NCBI GenBank assembly: GCA_025923455.1 | Contig: JAICFW010000011.1 | Coordinates: forward strand, 1-36,341 | DNA: 36,341 nucleotides | From: Nitrososphaeraceae archaeon | GTDB taxonomy: Archaea > Thermoproteota > Nitrososphaeria > Nitrososphaerales > Nitrososphaeraceae | Reading direction: 5' to 3' | Position numbers and translations under genes: made by a program | Shown: one piece after another, positions 22,338 to 30,511 of the stretch | Layout of the letters: each line of letters starts with the position of its first letter | How positions within the stretch are numbered: the stretch's first letter is position 1 | Notes under the pieces: generated by a model | What the model saw: the letters and a program-made list of their open reading frames with translations, nothing else | Databases searched by the model: none | Told to the model about the DNA's origin: nothing

Positions 22338-22398
22338 CCAGAATTCATTACCAAAAATGTCCCGCGGTAGCTCAGCCTGGTAGAGCTTTCGGCTGTAG

Positions 22399-22455
22399 TA
22401 GTCGGCAGAAATTGCTAACCTCGTGAAACAGCCTATCAGGCTAACATTTGCAGCG
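22399..22455 (+). other. tRNA intron 1 (57 nt, position 37/38)
   Basis: This is a canonical position one base after the anticodon. A bulge-helix-bulge can be drawn: 3-nt bulge A-G-T on the 5' side, central helix CTGT/GCAG and 3-nt bulge C-G-A on the 3' side. Cleavage after the second bulge base gives exactly this intron. Splicing would need the archaeal tRNA endonuclease. Confidence 0.85.
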
Positions 22456-22476
22456 ACCGAAGAGTCGCAGGCTCAA

Positions 22477-22507
22477 ACAGATTTGATTTCATGGTCTTCT
22501 GGAGTAA
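22477..22507 (+). other. tRNA intron 2 (31 nt, in the T-loop)
   Basis: It interrupts the T-loop. CTC/GAG next to the T-stem plus CAGA/TCTG inside, with a 3-nt AAA bulge between them, forms a relaxed bulge-helix-bulge. The exact ends are ambiguous by up to three bases (22475-22505 to 22478-22508). Removal restores a 7-nt T-loop and the GCAGG/CCTGC stem. Confidence 0.8.
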
Positions 22508-22636
22508 ATCCTGCCCGCGGGATACACTTCTAACATTCATTGAAAACATGCTTGATTCTAATTTTATTGAATCTTCTATAGCTTTGAAGACTTTTTCTCT
22601 GTTATTGTTAAATTACCCGTCTGTGAAATACCTGTA

Positions 22637-23378: not shown

Positions 23379-24083
23379 TTGTTTTCAAATAAATTCAAAG
23401 TTTGTGTCTCTCTAGCAACAGATTCGGTTGACAAGCTGGCAGCATTGATTTCTAGCGCCATTCAGAAAAGGGCAGATTTTGTGGAAATTAGATTTGATCA
23501 TACCATATACAAGGAAATAGATCATGCCCTGGACGTAACTCGTAAGATAAAAAATACAGCAATCTTTACCTTAAGATCGAAACAAGAAGGTGGATCATTT
23601 GAGGGAAGTGAAAGAGAACGTATTTCACTATTAGAGAAAATGGCTATGACTAGACCCATGTTGCTTGATATAGAGATCTCCACTTTAAAAAATGATAAAA
23701 GGTTTATGAAATTTCTATCGGAAAATAGAATCCCAATACTGGTATCATTCCATGATTTTAGAAAAACATCAGGTATTTCTACACTCTTAAAAAAATTTGA
23801 AGATATGAGAAAGTACAGCAACTATGTTAAAATGGTTACCACAGCAAGATCTTTAGAGGATAATTTCAAATTGCTTTCACTTTACGACAACAATGATAGT
23901 ACAAAATTGATTGCATTTGCCATGGGAGAACATGGAATATTGTCGAGATTATTATGTAATCTATACGGAGATTCACCGTTTACCTATGCTTCACTGGATA
24001 AGCCATTGGCACCGGGCCAACTTGACATTGTATTAATGAAAAAAATATACGATAGAATTGTAAATAATCTGAAAAGTAAATGA
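23379..24083 (+). CDS. aroD: 3-dehydroquinate dehydratase, type I
   Basis: A 234-aa class I enzyme forming 3-dehydroshikimate via a Schiff base. Key residues are EIR (36-38), VSFHDF with H125 as general base, and the Schiff-base Lys K151 in NYVKMVTTARS. IAFAMGEHGILSRLL and FTYASLDKPLAPGQL complete the site. The start is TTG. Its stop overlaps the aroE start by four bases. It is the first shikimate enzyme of this run; upstream enzymes for the archaeal ADH/DHQ route are not in the window. Confidence 0.95.
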   Translation: MFSNKFKVCVSLATDSVDKLAALISSAIQKRADFVEIRFDHTIYKEIDHALDVTRKIKNTAIFTLRSKQEGGSFEGSERERISLLEKMAMTRPMLLDIEISTLKNDKRFMKFLSENRIPILVSFHDFRKTSGISTLLKKFEDMRKYSNYVKMVTTARSLEDNFKLLSLYDNNDSTKLIAFAMGEHGILSRLLCNLYGDSPFTYASLDKPLAPGQLDIVLMKKIYDRIVNNLKSK

Positions 24084-24925
24084 GTACTGAGTTTAAGACT
24101 TTTTGCATTATTGGGGATCCTATCGACCATTCATTATCGCCCGCAATTCACAACGCTGCGTTTACTACTCTAGGGTTAAATTGCAGCTATATTGCATTCA
24201 GGGTTCAAGAAGGTCAATTGAAAAATTCAATGGATTCTTTGCGGGCTATAAACATTGGGGGGTTTAATGTAACTATGCCCCACAAGGTTGCAGTTCTAAA
24301 TTATGTTGATAAATCCGACAAGATAGTTCAGATGGTCGGAGCTGCAAATACAGTAAACAACGAAGATGGAAAGTTTTATGCTTATAATACCGATGTTGCC
24401 GGCTTCATTGAACCTTTACATCAACGAAAGATCGATCTTAATGGCTACGAAGTTCTTATTTTGGGAGCTGGTGGGGCAGCTAGAGCAGTGGTAGTTGCAC
24501 TCTCGCAAGAAAAAGGAATTTCCAAGATCAATATTGTCAATAGGAATATTGATCGATCTACAAACTTGGCAAATATCATCAACAAATTAGGATTAAGGGC
24601 AAACATCATTTCCCATGATGATATTCAGAAAATTGCATTTAGATCCAATCTCATCGTAAACACCACTCCACTTGGCATGAAAAATGAAGAAAGTTTGATA
24701 AAGTCATCCAGTATAAGTAAGGAATCAATTGTGTATGATATCGTGTACAAGCCTGTAGAAACTAAATTATTAGAAAATGCTAAAACAGTCGGTGCTCAGG
24801 TAGTCTATGGATATGAAATGTTACTAGAGCAGGCGATTGCTTCATTTAAGATATGGTTCAGGTTGGATCCCCCAAGAGAGTCCATGAAGAAGGTTTTATT
24901 CGGAATGTTTGGTGAACCTATATGA
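24080..24925 (+). CDS. aroE: Shikimate dehydrogenase
   Basis: A 281-aa NADP-dependent reductase of 3-dehydroshikimate. The N-terminal substrate domain has GDPIDHSLSPAIHNAAF and GFNVTMPHKV with the catalytic Lys at 69. ANTVNNEDGKFYAYNTD contributes the catalytic Asp. The Rossmann domain has GAGGAARAVV and a following NRN that suits NADP. The protein ends in YGYEMLLEQAIASFKIW. Overlaps of 4 nt with aroD and with aroK show tight operon organisation. Confidence 0.96.
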   Translation: MSTEFKTFCIIGDPIDHSLSPAIHNAAFTTLGLNCSYIAFRVQEGQLKNSMDSLRAINIGGFNVTMPHKVAVLNYVDKSDKIVQMVGAANTVNNEDGKFYAYNTDVAGFIEPLHQRKIDLNGYEVLILGAGGAARAVVVALSQEKGISKINIVNRNIDRSTNLANIINKLGLRANIISHDDIQKIAFRSNLIVNTTPLGMKNEESLIKSSSISKESIVYDIVYKPVETKLLENAKTVGAQVVYGYEMLLEQAIASFKIWFRLDPPRESMKKVLFGMFGEPI

Positions 24926-25776
24926 CTATAAAGGTAACATCAGTAGTTCATGGCGCCATTTCCATAGTGAACGCTGTTGCCACAGGATTTGGTTCTGCCG
25001 TAGGTATTTCTCTAGAGGTGAAAGTGGAAATTGTGTCAAGGAAGGGTTCAGGAATAATCTTTCAAAAGGGCCGAGGAAGTCCAATGATAAAAAAGATAAT
25101 TCATGACATGCTAACATCAAAGTATCTCAACAACAATCAATTATTGATTAATATCAACTCCGAGATACCATCAGGTATGGGTTTGAAAAGTTCTAGTGCA
25201 GTATCAAATGCAGTAGCCCTCGCGTGTAATTCACTAGTGAATGAAGTTATTAATGATGAAATTATATTAAATAGTGCTATAGATGCATCGTTATACGCAA
25301 AGACGACTATTACCGGTGCATTTGATGATTCGGCTGCATGTTATTATGGAGGATTTGTTACCACTGACAACTATAAGAGGAAAATAATGAAAAGAGAGTC
25401 TACGCCTACGGATATAAGTGCTGTAATATTTTTGCCAAATAATAAAAAAAGGGGAGATATTTCTAAACTAAAATTGCTATCAGAAATTTATCTTGAAGCC
25501 TTTCAATTGGCCCATTCGGGACAATATTGGAAAGCAATGACATTAAACGGAGTTTTGACTTCCTCATTACTATCAAACAGTTACACCATCACTAGGATGT
25601 GTCTAGAAAATGGAGCACTGGCAGCCAGTATATCTGGTAACGGTCCAGCAATAGCTGCCGTAGCGGGTGAAAGAGAGATACAAAAAATAAAGTCGATATT
25701 GTCCAATTTAGATGGAAGGGTGATTGTTTCGAAAACAAATAATCAAAAGGCATCTGCTGTGAGAGAAATTGAGTAA
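24922..25776 (+). CDS. aroK: Shikimate kinase, archaeal GHMP type
   Basis: A 284-aa shikimate kinase of the GHMP superfamily, unrelated to bacterial AroK/AroL. The ATP-binding motif is PSGMGLKSSSAVSNA. The N-terminus has GAISIVNAVATGFGSAVGI, ITGAFDDSAACYYGGFV follows, and the C-terminal GHMP motif is ISGNGPAIAAV. The identity follows from the motif pattern plus the position between aroE and aroA. It overlaps aroE by 4 nt and aroA by 8 nt. Confidence 0.94.
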   Translation: MTIKVTSVVHGAISIVNAVATGFGSAVGISLEVKVEIVSRKGSGIIFQKGRGSPMIKKIIHDMLTSKYLNNNQLLININSEIPSGMGLKSSSAVSNAVALACNSLVNEVINDEIILNSAIDASLYAKTTITGAFDDSAACYYGGFVTTDNYKRKIMKRESTPTDISAVIFLPNNKKRGDISKLKLLSEIYLEAFQLAHSGQYWKAMTLNGVLTSSLLSNSYTITRMCLENGALAASISGNGPAIAAVAGEREIQKIKSILSNLDGRVIVSKTNNQKASAVREIE

Positions 25777-27052
25777 GATAAAAGTATCAAAGTCGGTGTT
25801 AAAGGGTAATGTAATATGTCCGCCCAGTAAGAGCTATACACACCGTGCTATTTTCATTTCTTCCTTGGCGAATGGAGATTCACATATAATTAATCCCCTC
25901 TTGTCACGGGATACAATTGCAACAATCGATGCATGCAAAGCATTTGGTGTAAAAATAATAAGAACTGATCAGGGGTTATTTGTTTCTGGAAATCCTACTT
26001 TAAAAATACCGGATGATGTTATTAATGTAGAGAACTCTGGAACAACTATGCGTTTTGTTACTGCAATCTCGGCGTTACTAAAAAACGGTCATGTAATAAT
26101 TACGGGTGATGATAGCATAAGGAAAAGGCCGATGGGACCATTATTATCAGCTTTAAAGCAACTTGGAGTGCATAGCTACTCAGCTACAGATAACGATAAA
26201 GCTCCAATTATAGTACAGGGAGGTGGCATCAAGGGTAATCATATTTCTATCGATGGTTCTATTTCAAGCCAATTTATTTCAGGTATTCTAATCGCAGGAG
26301 CTTGTACAGAATCAGGAATATCTTTAAACGTTACTGGAAAACAAGTTTCAAGGTCATACATCGAATCCACTCTTAATGTTATGAACAAATTTGGTGCCAG
26401 AGTAAGGAAATCAAGTGACTATAGAAATTATAAAATCTTTTACAATAGATACATTCCAACTACTTTTGCCATACCAGGCGATTTTTCTACAGCGGCACTG
26501 TTGCTATCTGCAGGCACACTTGCTGGGGGCGAGATCACCGTTACTAATTTGGACTTTTCGTTACCACAAGGGGATTCAAAGATTCTTGATATCCTGAAAA
26601 AAATTGGTGCGGTAATTAGTATAAACAAGAAGAATGGGACTGTGAAAACTATAGGAACTAGAGATCTGAATGGGGGCGAATTTGACCTGTCCGACACACC
26701 AGATTTGTTTCCTGTTGTGGCTATTCTATCATTAAAATCAATTAATCCTGTTAGGATATATGGAGTTTCTCACACGCGATACAAAGAAACGGATAGATTA
26801 AAAATAATTGCATCTGAGTTTAGAAAATTTGGAGTTAAAACAAAGATACTTCCCGACGAAATTACCATTGTTTCACCAAAAAAACTAAAGAACGCACATA
26901 TTAATTCACACGGGGATCATAGACTTTTCATGAGCTTTGTAATAGCGTCAATGATGACTGAAAAATCTATTGTAGATGGTGTAGAATCAGTTGATGTTTC
27001 TTACCCTTCTTTTATCCAAGACATGAAAAAGATTGGTGCAAAATTCAGTTAG
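25769..27052 (+). CDS. aroA: 3-phosphoshikimate 1-carboxyvinyltransferase (EPSP synthase)
   Basis: A 427-aa enzyme joining PEP to shikimate-3-phosphate. Typical motifs are PPSKSYTHRAIFISSLA (substrate Lys), NVENSGTTMRFVTAI, DDSIRKRPMGPLLSAL, ISSQFISGILIAGA, GDFSTAALLLSAG, and SHTRYKETDRLKIIASEFRKFG. The length is normal with two inside-out alpha/beta domains. The start is TTG, overlapping aroK by 8 nt. It is followed by a 96-nt gap before aroC with its own TATA-like tract, so transcription may restart there. Confidence 0.96.
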   Translation: MSKIKVSKSVLKGNVICPPSKSYTHRAIFISSLANGDSHIINPLLSRDTIATIDACKAFGVKIIRTDQGLFVSGNPTLKIPDDVINVENSGTTMRFVTAISALLKNGHVIITGDDSIRKRPMGPLLSALKQLGVHSYSATDNDKAPIIVQGGGIKGNHISIDGSISSQFISGILIAGACTESGISLNVTGKQVSRSYIESTLNVMNKFGARVRKSSDYRNYKIFYNRYIPTTFAIPGDFSTAALLLSAGTLAGGEITVTNLDFSLPQGDSKILDILKKIGAVISINKKNGTVKTIGTRDLNGGEFDLSDTPDLFPVVAILSLKSINPVRIYGVSHTRYKETDRLKIIASEFRKFGVKTKILPDEITIVSPKKLKNAHINSHGDHRLFMSFVIASMMTEKSIVDGVESVDVSYPSFIQDMKKIGAKFS

Positions 27053-27109
27053 TCTTGATTGTATTACATATGATTCCTAAAACCTTGGTACTATGAACTA
27101 ACATAAAGG

Positions 27110-27118
27110 CAATATATA
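27110..27118 (+). promoter_or_regulatory. TATA-like tract before aroC
   Basis: An alternating AT tract about 30-38 nt before ATG 27149 could be an internal promoter splitting the aroD-aroA run from aroC-tyrA. Confidence 0.35.
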
Positions 27119-27148
27119 TGACATACAAGGGGTATCAATATCCATAAA

Positions 27149-28261
27149 ATGACTGGCAATATCTTGGGCGAGCAACTAACATTAACCAGTTTCGGTGAAA
27201 GCCACGGAAGATGCATTGGAATGGTTTTGGACGGATGCCCTGCTGGGCTTCCTCTATCTGAATCAGACCTACAGATCGAATTAGACAAGCGAAAACCAGG
27301 ACAATCGATAATCACAACTCAGAGAAAGGAAGAAGACAGAGTAGAAATATTGTCAGGAGTTTTTAATGGATTTACAACTTCAGCTCCAATATGTGCAATA
27401 ATATGGAACAAAGACTCAGATTCTAGACCCTATGATGTGTTAAAGAACAGTCCAAGACCAGGACATGCTGATTATCCATCTTTCATAAAATACGGAGGTT
27501 ATGCCGACTATAGAGGAAGTGGGAGGTTTTCTGGCAGATTAACGGCAACAATGGTTATGGGCGGTGCTGTAGCACAAAAGCTTTTGAAATATACGTTGGG
27601 GATAGAGACAATTGCATACACTATTCAAATAGGTAAAATTAGCTACAAATCTTCATCGTTTAAAGAATCAAAACAAAATAGATATGCAAATGATGTCCGC
27701 TGTCCTGATCCTGAAATTGCTGAAAAAATGAAATCTGCCATAGTAGATGCAAAGAAAGATGGTGATTCACTTGGGGGTATTGTAGAGTCTATATCTGTGG
27801 GATTACCAGTGGGACTAGGAGCACCGATATTCTCTTCATTGGAATCTGATCTAAGTAAAGCGTTATTTAGCATCCCCTCTGTAAAGGCAATAGAATTTGG
27901 TTCTGGTTTTTCAGGAACAAAACTAAAAGGTTCCGAAAATAACGACGAGTATGTAATATCTGAGGATCATAAAATAGCAACTAAGACAAACAATTCTGGT
28001 GGTATTTTAGGTGGCCTGACTAACGGAATGCCAATAGTAATAAGAATCGGCTTCAAACCAGCATCTTCCATAGCGAAGAAGCAAAAAACAATAGACTTGG
28101 CTTCCAATTCTGAGTGCGACATCGTTGTTCCTGGGAGGCATGATCCATGCGTTGTTCCTCGAGCTATACCGGTAGTTGAATCATTAGTTTCATTGGTTTT
28201 GGCAGATCATGCGGTTCGATGGAATCTAATACCACCTGTTCTGAGTGAAGGGAAAAAATGA
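27149..28261 (+). CDS. aroC: Chorismate synthase
   Basis: A 370-aa FMN-dependent enzyme producing chorismate from EPSP. Signatures are TSFGESHGRCIGMVLDGCPAG, TTQRKEEDRVEILSGVF, SRPGHAD-like SPRPGHADYPSFIKYG, YRGSGRFSGRLTATMVMGGAV and GRHDPCVVPRAIPVVES. The length is usual. Its stop overlaps the start of the chorismate mutase-aminotransferase gene by 4 nt, so synthesis of chorismate and its first use are coupled. Confidence 0.97.
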   Translation: MTGNILGEQLTLTSFGESHGRCIGMVLDGCPAGLPLSESDLQIELDKRKPGQSIITTQRKEEDRVEILSGVFNGFTTSAPICAIIWNKDSDSRPYDVLKNSPRPGHADYPSFIKYGGYADYRGSGRFSGRLTATMVMGGAVAQKLLKYTLGIETIAYTIQIGKISYKSSSFKESKQNRYANDVRCPDPEIAEKMKSAIVDAKKDGDSLGGIVESISVGLPVGLGAPIFSSLESDLSKALFSIPSVKAIEFGSGFSGTKLKGSENNDEYVISEDHKIATKTNNSGGILGGLTNGMPIVIRIGFKPASSIAKKQKTIDLASNSECDIVVPGRHDPCVVPRAIPVVESLVSLVLADHAVRWNLIPPVLSEGKK

Positions 28262-29634
28262 GCGAAGAAAAAGAACAAAAATTAGAAAGACTCCGCAAAG
28301 ACATGCGACTTGTAACTGTTGATATTATAAAACTCATTCAGAAAAGAATGAAGATAGCAAGTCAAATCGGAAACATTAAGAAAAATCTCATGATGAACAT
28401 CGAGGATATTTCCGTCGAACAAGACATGGCGAGATATGTTCATGAAATGGGAACACAAATAGGATTGAATAATGAATTCATAGGCAGATTATTGAATTTA
28501 CTATTTTTAGAATCAATAAAAATACAAAAGGAAAAGACCTCCGAGAAAGAAACAAAGCTAGATCACATGGCAATGTTTTTAAAAGCAAAACAACTCGAAT
28601 CTGAAGGTAAAAAGATAATTCATTTGGAGGTAGGTGAACCCGATTACATGCCTCCCGCTAGTGTCAAACGCGAACTATCGAAAACATTCGATAAAAGGCA
28701 CGTTCACTATACGCAAACGACTGGAATTCCGGTACTGAGAAAGTCAATTGCCCGGGAAAGATCTGTAAGGGAGGAAAATGTGATAGTTACCCCCGGGGCA
28801 AGATTTGCAGTATTTAGTGCCATGGTTTCAACACTGTCAATCGGTGATGAAATTATCATTTTTGAACCTGCGTGGCCTGCTTACAGAGATTGTGCAAATT
28901 TTATTGGAGTAAAAGTCAAAGCTATTAAGACAACAGTAGAACAAAAATGGGATCTGGATTTGAAAGAGGTGGAAAAAATGATAACACCAAATACCAAGAT
29001 GATAGTTCTAAACTCGCCTAATAACCCTACAGGAAAAGTAATTCAGCAAAAACAAATTGATGCTATCTTGGAGATTTCCAGTAAAAATAAATTAATTGTT
29101 CTCAGTGATGAGGTGTACTCCATGTATTCCTATGTTCCATACAAGAGCATTCTAGAATTTGAATATGACAAGAGTATCATGATTTCCTCATTCTCAAAAA
29201 GCCATGCAATGACTGGATTTAGAATTGGATATGCAATATCCTCAGAAGATATCTTGGATAAAATTTCAAAAATTCAAGCTATGGCAATAACCAGTGTGGC
29301 CGAACCAATGCAATATGCCGCCACTGCAGCTCTGAAGAGTGATGTTACTAACAATGCGAAATTAATGAAGAAACGCCTTGATTTTATACGAAGTGAATTA
29401 GATGGTATTCCTTGCGATTTTGTCAATCCAGATGGGGGCATGTACTATTTCATTAGATTCAAAAATATCAGTGCTAATAAGATACTAAACGATCTCTTAA
29501 ATGATGGAGTCGCAGTAGCCCCGGGTAATGGCTTTGGAGAGTCATATGTTGATTTTATTAGAATTTCGGCATGTCAACCAATTAAATTGCTAAAAGATGG
29601 ATTAAAAATACTTAGAAAAGTAACGAATGTGTGA
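28258..29634 (+). CDS. Chorismate mutase (AroQ)-aminotransferase fusion
   Basis: A 458-aa fusion. Residues 1-92 form an AroQ-type helical chorismate mutase domain with R13, R30, K41, D50, E54, S86 and Q90 at the expected sites, but Val53 where Escherichia coli has Arg51. From about residue 103 it is a class I PLP aminotransferase: EVGEPDYMPP, PGARFAVFSAM, NSPNNPTGKV, LSDEVYSMY, and the PLP Lys K314 in SSFSKSHAMTGFRIGY. It probably makes prephenate and transaminates prephenate or the keto acids of Phe/Tyr. It overlaps aroC by 4 nt and tyrA by up to 8 nt. Mutase activity depends on tolerance of Val53. Confidence 0.92.
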   Translation: MSEEKEQKLERLRKDMRLVTVDIIKLIQKRMKIASQIGNIKKNLMMNIEDISVEQDMARYVHEMGTQIGLNNEFIGRLLNLLFLESIKIQKEKTSEKETKLDHMAMFLKAKQLESEGKKIIHLEVGEPDYMPPASVKRELSKTFDKRHVHYTQTTGIPVLRKSIARERSVREENVIVTPGARFAVFSAMVSTLSIGDEIIIFEPAWPAYRDCANFIGVKVKAIKTTVEQKWDLDLKEVEKMITPNTKMIVLNSPNNPTGKVIQQKQIDAILEISSKNKLIVLSDEVYSMYSYVPYKSILEFEYDKSIMISSFSKSHAMTGFRIGYAISSEDILDKISKIQAMAITSVAEPMQYAATAALKSDVTNNAKLMKKRLDFIRSELDGIPCDFVNPDGGMYYFIRFKNISANKILNDLLNDGVAVAPGNGFGESYVDFIRISACQPIKLLKDGLKILRKVTNV

Positions 29635-30511
29635 TACAATGGTCAGAACAGTTGCAATTCTAGGTGTTGGAAAAATGGGATTGTGGTTCTGCAATTATTT
29701 TTCAAAAAAGCATAATTATAAGGTATTTTTGTATGATAGGAGAAAGATCAAAATAGATTCAATCAATAACCCTAAAAATGTGACCGTTTGCAAATCATTT
29801 CAAACATGTGTCAGTAAAGCTGATATCGTAATTGTGTGCGTGCCTATCAGATTAGCGGTACCTGTAATTAACAAATGTATCTCAATAATGAAAAATGGTG
29901 CATGCCTGTTAGAAATATCATCACTCAAATCGGATATCTTTAAATCTTTGTTAAAAATTCCTGAACATATAACTCCACTCTCAATTCATCCAATGTTCGG
30001 TCCTGGTGCAAAGAACCTGAGCGACGCAAAAATATTGATTATACCAATTAGGAATACAAATAGAGAACAGAATTTGATAAAATCATTATTTATTGAAGCA
30101 AGAACAATTGTAATTAAAGACCCGCAATCTCATGATTCAATTATGGCGATGATATTAGGAATGATCTACTACACTAACTTATTACTGGCTAGCACTTTGA
30201 GTAAGGAAAACATAACGTTACTAAAGAGGGTTTCTGGAACTACTTTTTATTTACAAACACTTCTCTTTGAAAGTATACTAACGGACAATTCCTCACTTAT
30301 AGCGTCACTTCTCGCAGATAACAAACAATTAGTAAAATATCTAAAAAAATACAATGAAGAATCAGCAAGAATATTCGATATAATAACCAAAAACAAAAAT
30401 ATGCTTGAAACAAGAATAAATCGTATTAAGAAAGATTATTCTAACAAGAAAGAAATTGGATCTTCATATCGAAAAATGTATTCAATAATTTCGAAAATGA
30501 ACAACGAATGA
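29627..30511 (+). CDS. tyrA: Prephenate (or arogenate) dehydrogenase
   Basis: A 294-aa NAD(P)-dependent enzyme of the tyrosine branch. The N-terminal Rossmann motif is ILGVGKMGLWF. The sequence then reads ADIVIVCVPIRLAVPVI and LEISSLKSDI, with SIHPMFGPGAK in the substrate-binding region. The C-terminal half is helical. It starts inside the preceding gene (ATG 29627, or ATG 29639 without overlap). Whether it uses prephenate or arogenate cannot be told; the adjacent aminotransferase fusion makes either possible. The following methyltransferase is 44 nt away. Confidence 0.9.
   Translation: MCDTMVRTVAILGVGKMGLWFCNYFSKKHNYKVFLYDRRKIKIDSINNPKNVTVCKSFQTCVSKADIVIVCVPIRLAVPVINKCISIMKNGACLLEISSLKSDIFKSLLKIPEHITPLSIHPMFGPGAKNLSDAKILIIPIRNTNREQNLIKSLFIEARTIVIKDPQSHDSIMAMILGMIYYTNLLLASTLSKENITLLKRVSGTTFYLQTLLFESILTDNSSLIASLLADNKQLVKYLKKYNEESARIFDIITKNKNMLETRINRIKKDYSNKKEIGSSYRKMYSIISKMNNE

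Follow-up and report, generated by a model that had tools for sequence, protein, structure and literature searches.

We report that the 37/38 intron of a tRNA-Tyr(GUA) gene from a Nitrososphaeraceae soil archaeon carries a conserved element that pairs with the D-loop of its own tRNA and is followed by an ACA trinucleotide. The gene lies in a stretch of 36,341 nucleotides, referred to here as the window; the parts of the gene described below are all on the + strand. The intron/D-loop pairing is well supported by compensatory changes between aligned sequences, and a long-range helix conserved phylum-wide needs explaining even if a guide function fails. We consider the chances evenly balanced that this intron, prior to splicing, guides the formation of pseudouridine 35 in cis in an H/ACA-like manner, a modification whose presence we infer. 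The D-loop-pairing and ACA element is the more unusual part of the gene and was absent from a preliminary description of this DNA, which had dealt with the exons, the splice junctions, and the T-loop.

The unspliced gene (22361..22522) consists of three exons (22361-22398, 22456-22476, and 22508-22522). As the preliminary description had proposed, a complete 74-nt tRNA-Tyr is obtained only upon removal of a 57-nt segment at 37/38 and a 31-nt segment from the T-loop: the spliced exons are called as tRNA-Tyr(gta) by ARAGORN, while the unspliced gene gave no call in an ARAGORN scan of the raw window and no Rfam match (no Rfam model matched anywhere in the window at gathering scores). Also borne out were a bulge-helix-bulge (BHB) at both junctions, the second being relaxed (3-bp central helix, with bulges of 3 nt and 5 nt), and a mature T-loop of CTCAAAT with C54, which the cloverleaf yields in every register near the repeat. 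The 37/38 intron (intron 1; 57 nt, 22399..22455) has a BHB central helix formed by CTGT (22393-22396) and GCAG (22450-22453), and an RYAG partner of CTGT is retained near the 3' end of the intron in relatives.

Aligned 37/38 introns share an order of parts: a hairpin, followed by CAGCC, URYYRRGC, one or two bases, and ACA. In the present gene, these parts correspond to a hairpin at 22401..22419 (GTCGGC/GCTAAC, imperfect here and forming a stem of differing sequence in most relatives), CAGCC at 22429..22433, TATCAGGCT at 22434..22442, and ACA at 22444..22446. The complement of URYYRRGC is found at bases 15-21 of the D-loop, within AGCCUGGUA. Here, the complementarity between TATCAGGCT and the D-loop sequence AGCCTGGTA (tRNA positions 14-21; 22374..22382) amounts to 9 bp, and this helix is contained in the RNAfold minimum-energy fold of the pre-tRNA. 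A phylum-wide search was carried out with a preset pattern (YYRRGC and a spacing of 15, with the partner of base 20 left free and G or A allowed opposite base 17), which matched in 76 of 250 genomes; a reversed control pattern matched in none. Part of the element was thereby selected in advance.

Across 115 genes, D-loop bases 15 to 20 are paired in all and base 21 in 98%. Where the D-loop changes, the intron changes with it: at base 17, C is accompanied by G and U by A in the intron, and at base 20, U is accompanied by A or G, C by G only, and A by U only. For 47 distinct rows, the covariation score was 0.233, compared to 0.170 ± 0.006 in shuffled alignments (reached in 0 of 500), and 20 cells had changed on both sides, compared to 4.2 in shuffles, with neither figure corrected for relatedness. 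Intron and D-loop cells were paired in 99.0% of instances, a value that fell to 48.8% or less when the alignment was slid by 1 to 3 columns. The same pairing was observed in 76 genes found without the element pattern, mostly by the 5' half of the tRNA. Additional genes not selected by the element display a U17-A pair (L288-L290) or an A15-U pair (L279), and D-loop/intron changes recur within individual families (f22, f25, f34, and f4).

Other causes of conservation were considered and rejected. An intron 1 hairpin, AGCC/GGCU, would account for part of the same sequence; its fourth pair breaks (C·A) in genes with U17, where the D-loop pairing is kept. Inspection for a box C/D guide within intron 1 revealed CUGA in some members of the family only, and a C box was not seen. 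Complementarity of this kind was also sought in the tRNA-Trp and tRNA-His 37/38 introns of the same genome, and none was seen. The element is not universal in tRNA-Tyr: one genome (G079; L157/L278) has a 37/38 intron without it, with the D-loop AACCTGGAA, and a member of family f42 (L300) has a short intron that likewise lacks it.

The CAGCC segment is complementary to GGCTG (tRNA positions 30-34), which is followed by U35, the proposed target (22391..22396, with U35 at 22396). This pairing, which ends beside U35, is formed in 85 to 100% of genes per position. In one gene (L256), base 31 is A and the intron reads UAGUC, which restores an A31-U pair. In other orders (L211-L227 and L288-L294), tRNA-Tyr contains an extra intron in the anticodon stem near 30/31, and the GGCUG pairing partner is therefore itself split in those genes.

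Archaeal H/ACA RNAs place their box 14 to 16 nt from the pair that closes the pocket and have a lower stem of 7 to 9 bp (PMC4652768). The ACA of intron 1 is retained in the family and lies 14 to 15 nt from the base opposite U35 (15 nt in the present gene), which is within the range for an ANA box. This spacing holds across 1-nt insertions (L056, L139, and L291-L294); it was fixed at 15 by the phylum-wide pattern, and the other searches yielding the element set no such spacing. In compact introns, ACAG doubles as the BHB strand pairing with CUGU, and in families f1 and f2, where the BHB strand is located further downstream behind variable sequence, ACA is retained. The helix made with the tRNA's own D-loop is 8 to 9 bp long, as for a lower stem, and CAGCC pairs with positions 30-34 directly 5' of the target, as would a 3' guide strand. 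No 5' guide pairing 3' of U35 was seen, the stretch after U35 leading straight into the intron hairpin. That hairpin, the proposed upper stem, lies approximately 18 to 24 nt from ACA rather than the canonical 14 to 16 nt, and inspection of the intron hairpins for a K-turn or K-loop for L7Ae gave no conserved GA/AG pairs.

Regarding the machinery, a Cbf5 gene is present in the genome, as is a gene for the stand-alone enzyme TruD/aPus7, whose family motif, KDxxAxTxQ, is intact to the extent that the contig end permits. Because a TruD/aPus7 enzyme is present, a guide is not strictly needed. Absence of aPus7 was also considered as support for a guide and was set aside, TruD (aPus7) being widespread (56 of 61 genomes of the class). 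Given that no K-turn or 5' guide was seen, the distance of the hairpin, and the presence of TruD, we do not class intron 1 as an H/ACA RNA, though its sequence suggests that it functions in the manner of one.

In the mechanism that we propose, the precursor would first fold with both its D-loop and its anticodon arm paired to intron 1. The URYYRRGC/D-loop helix would serve as the lower stem and CAGCC/30-34 as the guide pairing, with ACA 15 nt away, such that U35 would sit where the H/ACA enzyme (Cbf5) could convert it to pseudouridine in cis. The anticodon CUG would then switch to the RYAG strand, the BHB would form, and the intron would be cut out; the use of the element by Cbf5 and this order of events are likewise our deduction. 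The computed energies are −46.0 kcal/mol for the alternative fold and −43.6 kcal/mol for the cloverleaf with BHB. In the unconstrained RNAfold minimum-energy fold of the precursor, the D-loop/intron helix is present, but CAGCC pairs with positions 23-27 and not with 30-34. It also counts against a guide that the pairing opens the D-arm and the anticodon arm. For the present gene, we slightly favor the explanation as a whole, namely, a single-copy tRNA spliced in its T-loop from a BHB at 58/59, with intron 1 guiding modification of U35. The broader proposal, that the tRNA-Tyr 37/38 intron in much of the phylum is a cis guide that uses the D-loop as lower stem, positions U35, and then refolds for splicing, is put somewhat short of an even chance.

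The main rival is a purely structural or regulatory role in splicing, in which the intron, docked on the D-loop and the anticodon arm, would keep the precursor in an alternative fold pending the action of splicing or folding factors, with no guide function. We regard this as rather unlikely, though it has the most in its favor among the alternatives: the two folds given above are close in energy, the CUG of the anticodon loop serves both of them, and ACAG is itself the BHB strand in compact introns. A structural contact does not predict, however, that ACA should stay in place when the BHB strand sits further downstream (f1 and f2), nor that a fixed spacing of 14 to 15 nt should survive insertions. 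A less probable reading is that the excised, possibly circular, intron guides modification of other tRNA-Tyr molecules in trans. The complementarities described above would work equally in that case, and there is precedent for an excised tRNA intron acting in this manner (PMC11408192), but another tRNA would have to be available with its D-arm open, while in cis the partner is always at hand.

Several known systems bear on a cis guide for U35. Sulfolobus uses an H/ACA sRNP to form pseudouridine 35 in pre-tRNA-Tyr (Muller 2009, as cited by PMC7991803 and PMC6313347). The proposed target and machinery are the same as those considered here, and in the papers citing that work the Sulfolobus RNA is described as a guide RNA and not as a tRNA intron. 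The modification guides that the literature searched describes as encoded in archaeal tRNA introns are those of the box C/D type in tRNA-Trp (PMC11408192). In Haloferax and other archaea, such a guide resides in the pre-tRNA-Trp intron, likewise a 37/38 intron carrying a guide for its own tRNA, and action in trans has been proposed for the Haloferax intron (PMC11408192); the element described here differs in being H/ACA-like, in residing on tRNA-Tyr, and in having no C or D box that we could see. The H/ACA-like motifs of Pyrobaculum, which lack a lower stem (PMC4652768), share an ACA at 14 to 16 nt and a reduced architecture. They keep a K-turn hairpin, whereas here the lower stem would use the D-loop of the substrate itself. 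The literature searched, which does not cover most subscription journals, gave no account of a tRNA intron with an H/ACA-like element, though an earlier description may exist. If true, the proposed guide would be to H/ACA RNAs what the guide in the tRNA-Trp intron is to box C/D RNAs; it would also explain the long retention of one archaeal tRNA intron and link intron retention to modification.

The second intron (31 nt) is located in the T-loop. Cuts at 56/57, 57/58, and 59/60 give mixed T-loops across the 31 distinct introns of the family. At 58/59 alone does a cut yield CTCAAAT in each of the 31, and the intron was therefore assigned to 22477..22507. In the precursor, C54-U55-C56 (22472..22474) forms the 3-bp central helix CTC/GAG of a relaxed BHB with GAG at 22502-22504, accompanied by a 5' bulge of AAA, an inner helix of CAGA/TCTG, and a 5-nt 3' bulge of TAAAT. 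C-G pairing in the central helix is present in 31/31 distinct introns, the partner of C54-U55-C56 being GAG in 25 and GGG in 6. Across the family, the bulges read AAA or AAU (5') and YANAU (3'), and the inner helix covaries (CAGA/TCTG, TAGC/GCTA, and CAAA/TTTG), with 87 to 100% pairing over its four positions. The tRNA-Trp(CCA) gene of the same genome (L301; G000:C61:19800-20100) has a comparable arrangement, with one intron at 37/38 and another, of 26 nt, in the T-loop; the latter lies at 58/59 and has the same architecture, with a UUC/GAA central helix and a U54-A pair. In addition, a tRNA-Gly(TCC) gene (L135; G000:C48:2580-2820) apparently contains an anticodon-loop intron and a second intron near 53/54.

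The T-loop segment is thus likely an ordinary BHB splicing intron common to the whole family, predicted to be removed at 58/59 from the relaxed BHB in which C54-U55-C56 would pair with GAG. The genome encodes two tRNA_int_endo genes, an alpha subunit with the catalytic Tyr/His/Lys and a beta subunit without the His. One subunit with the triad and one without the His fit the α2-β2 type of splicing endonuclease found in Thaumarchaeota (PMC4090602). Noncanonical archaeal tRNA introns have been described at sites including 53/54, 56/57, and 59/60 (PMC4090602), and 107 such introns have been counted in Thaumarchaeota (PMC8450103). With the noncanonical BHB introns of Crenarchaeota and Thaumarchaeota (PMC4090602, PMC8450103), the present case shares a T-loop site, a relaxed BHB, an α2-β2 enzyme, and more than one intron per gene; it differs in the 58/59 position, in being fixed in one family, and in having C54 within the splicing helix. 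In Thermofilum pendens, a permuted gene for tRNA-Tyr(GUA) with its join at 59/60 (PMC3218864) has a T-loop break adjoining this site and a canonical intron as well, but its halves are permuted, while here they are in normal order.

The preliminary description had singled out the T-loop position together with C54 as notable, a point that has lost most of its weight: T-loop introns are an already described class, and C54 also occurs in intron-free T-loops, namely, CTCAAGT (tRNA-Met, L005) and CTCAAAT (L026) of the same genome and a tRNA-Tyr of another family without a T-loop intron (L162). C54 is not a requirement of the T-loop intron, as the same intron is found with U54 in tRNA-Trp and C54 is found without the intron. 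Rather, base 54 follows its intron partner, C with G in tRNA-Tyr and U with A in tRNA-Trp; position 54 lies within the splicing helix and pairs with the intron. A distant family (f38; L227) again has C54 in tRNA-Tyr with a CUC/GAG helix, and in the T-loop introns of other tRNA-Tyr genes the helix is UUC/GAA (L211 and L214) or UUC/GAG (L237 and L239). C54 is likely the splicing-helix partner of G and would be retained in the mature tRNA; the T-loop case indicates that base 54 can be dictated by splicing needs. Editing of C54 to U in the mature tRNA, which would give a normal T-loop and leave C54 a feature of the precursor only, is quite improbable. Methanopyrus is known to edit base 8 of tRNA from C to U (PMC3695527), but C54 is apparently tolerated, as it occurs in the intron-free T-loops listed above.

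Other T-loops of the same genome also depart from the usual bases. In four loci (L006, L007, L018, and L019), comprising tRNA-Thr(TGT), tRNA-Thr(GGT), and tRNA-Lys(CTT), base 55 is C, within T-loops of TCCAAAT or TCCGAAT, and the usual pseudouridine 55 is therefore impossible in these tRNAs. Three more (L020, L129, and L132), corresponding to tRNA-Arg(TCG), tRNA-Arg(TCT), and a third tRNA, have the T-loop ATCGAAG with A54.

The assembly comprises 162 contigs, is 95% complete, and gave 38 tRNA matches. An intact second tRNA-Tyr, which the preliminary description had named as grounds for doubt, was sought in this genome with ARAGORN and with a pattern for the 5' half of tRNA-Tyr, and none was found. 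The pattern gave one full match, and the other gene that ARAGORN names as tRNA-Tyr (L027; G000:C95:6873-6974) is in fact a tRNA-His, with GTG as its anticodon and an intron at 37/38; tRNA-Tyr is therefore single copy in the assembly. The closest named relatives are Nitrososphaeraceae and Nitrososphaerales MAGs. The comparison with related genomes that had been suggested for the T-loop intron and C54 gave a uniform result, with both introns and C54 present in 35/35 genomes of the same family whose tRNA-Tyr gene was read. In families f2 and f9, which belong to the same order, the 37/38 intron occurs as well, but the T-loop intron is missing and base 54 is U. Taken from sequence comparison, the gene appears to be a functional, single-copy tRNA-Tyr whose precursor would be cut twice by the α2-β2 splicing endonuclease. 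A pseudogene or assembly artifact, which might be suspected from the raw window going uncalled by ARAGORN and Rfam, is extremely improbable for the sole tRNA-Tyr found in the genome, given that 35 genomes of the family carry the gene with identical or near-identical exons and with introns that covary. Downstream of the tRNA, the window contains a run of shikimate-pathway-like genes (23379-30511).
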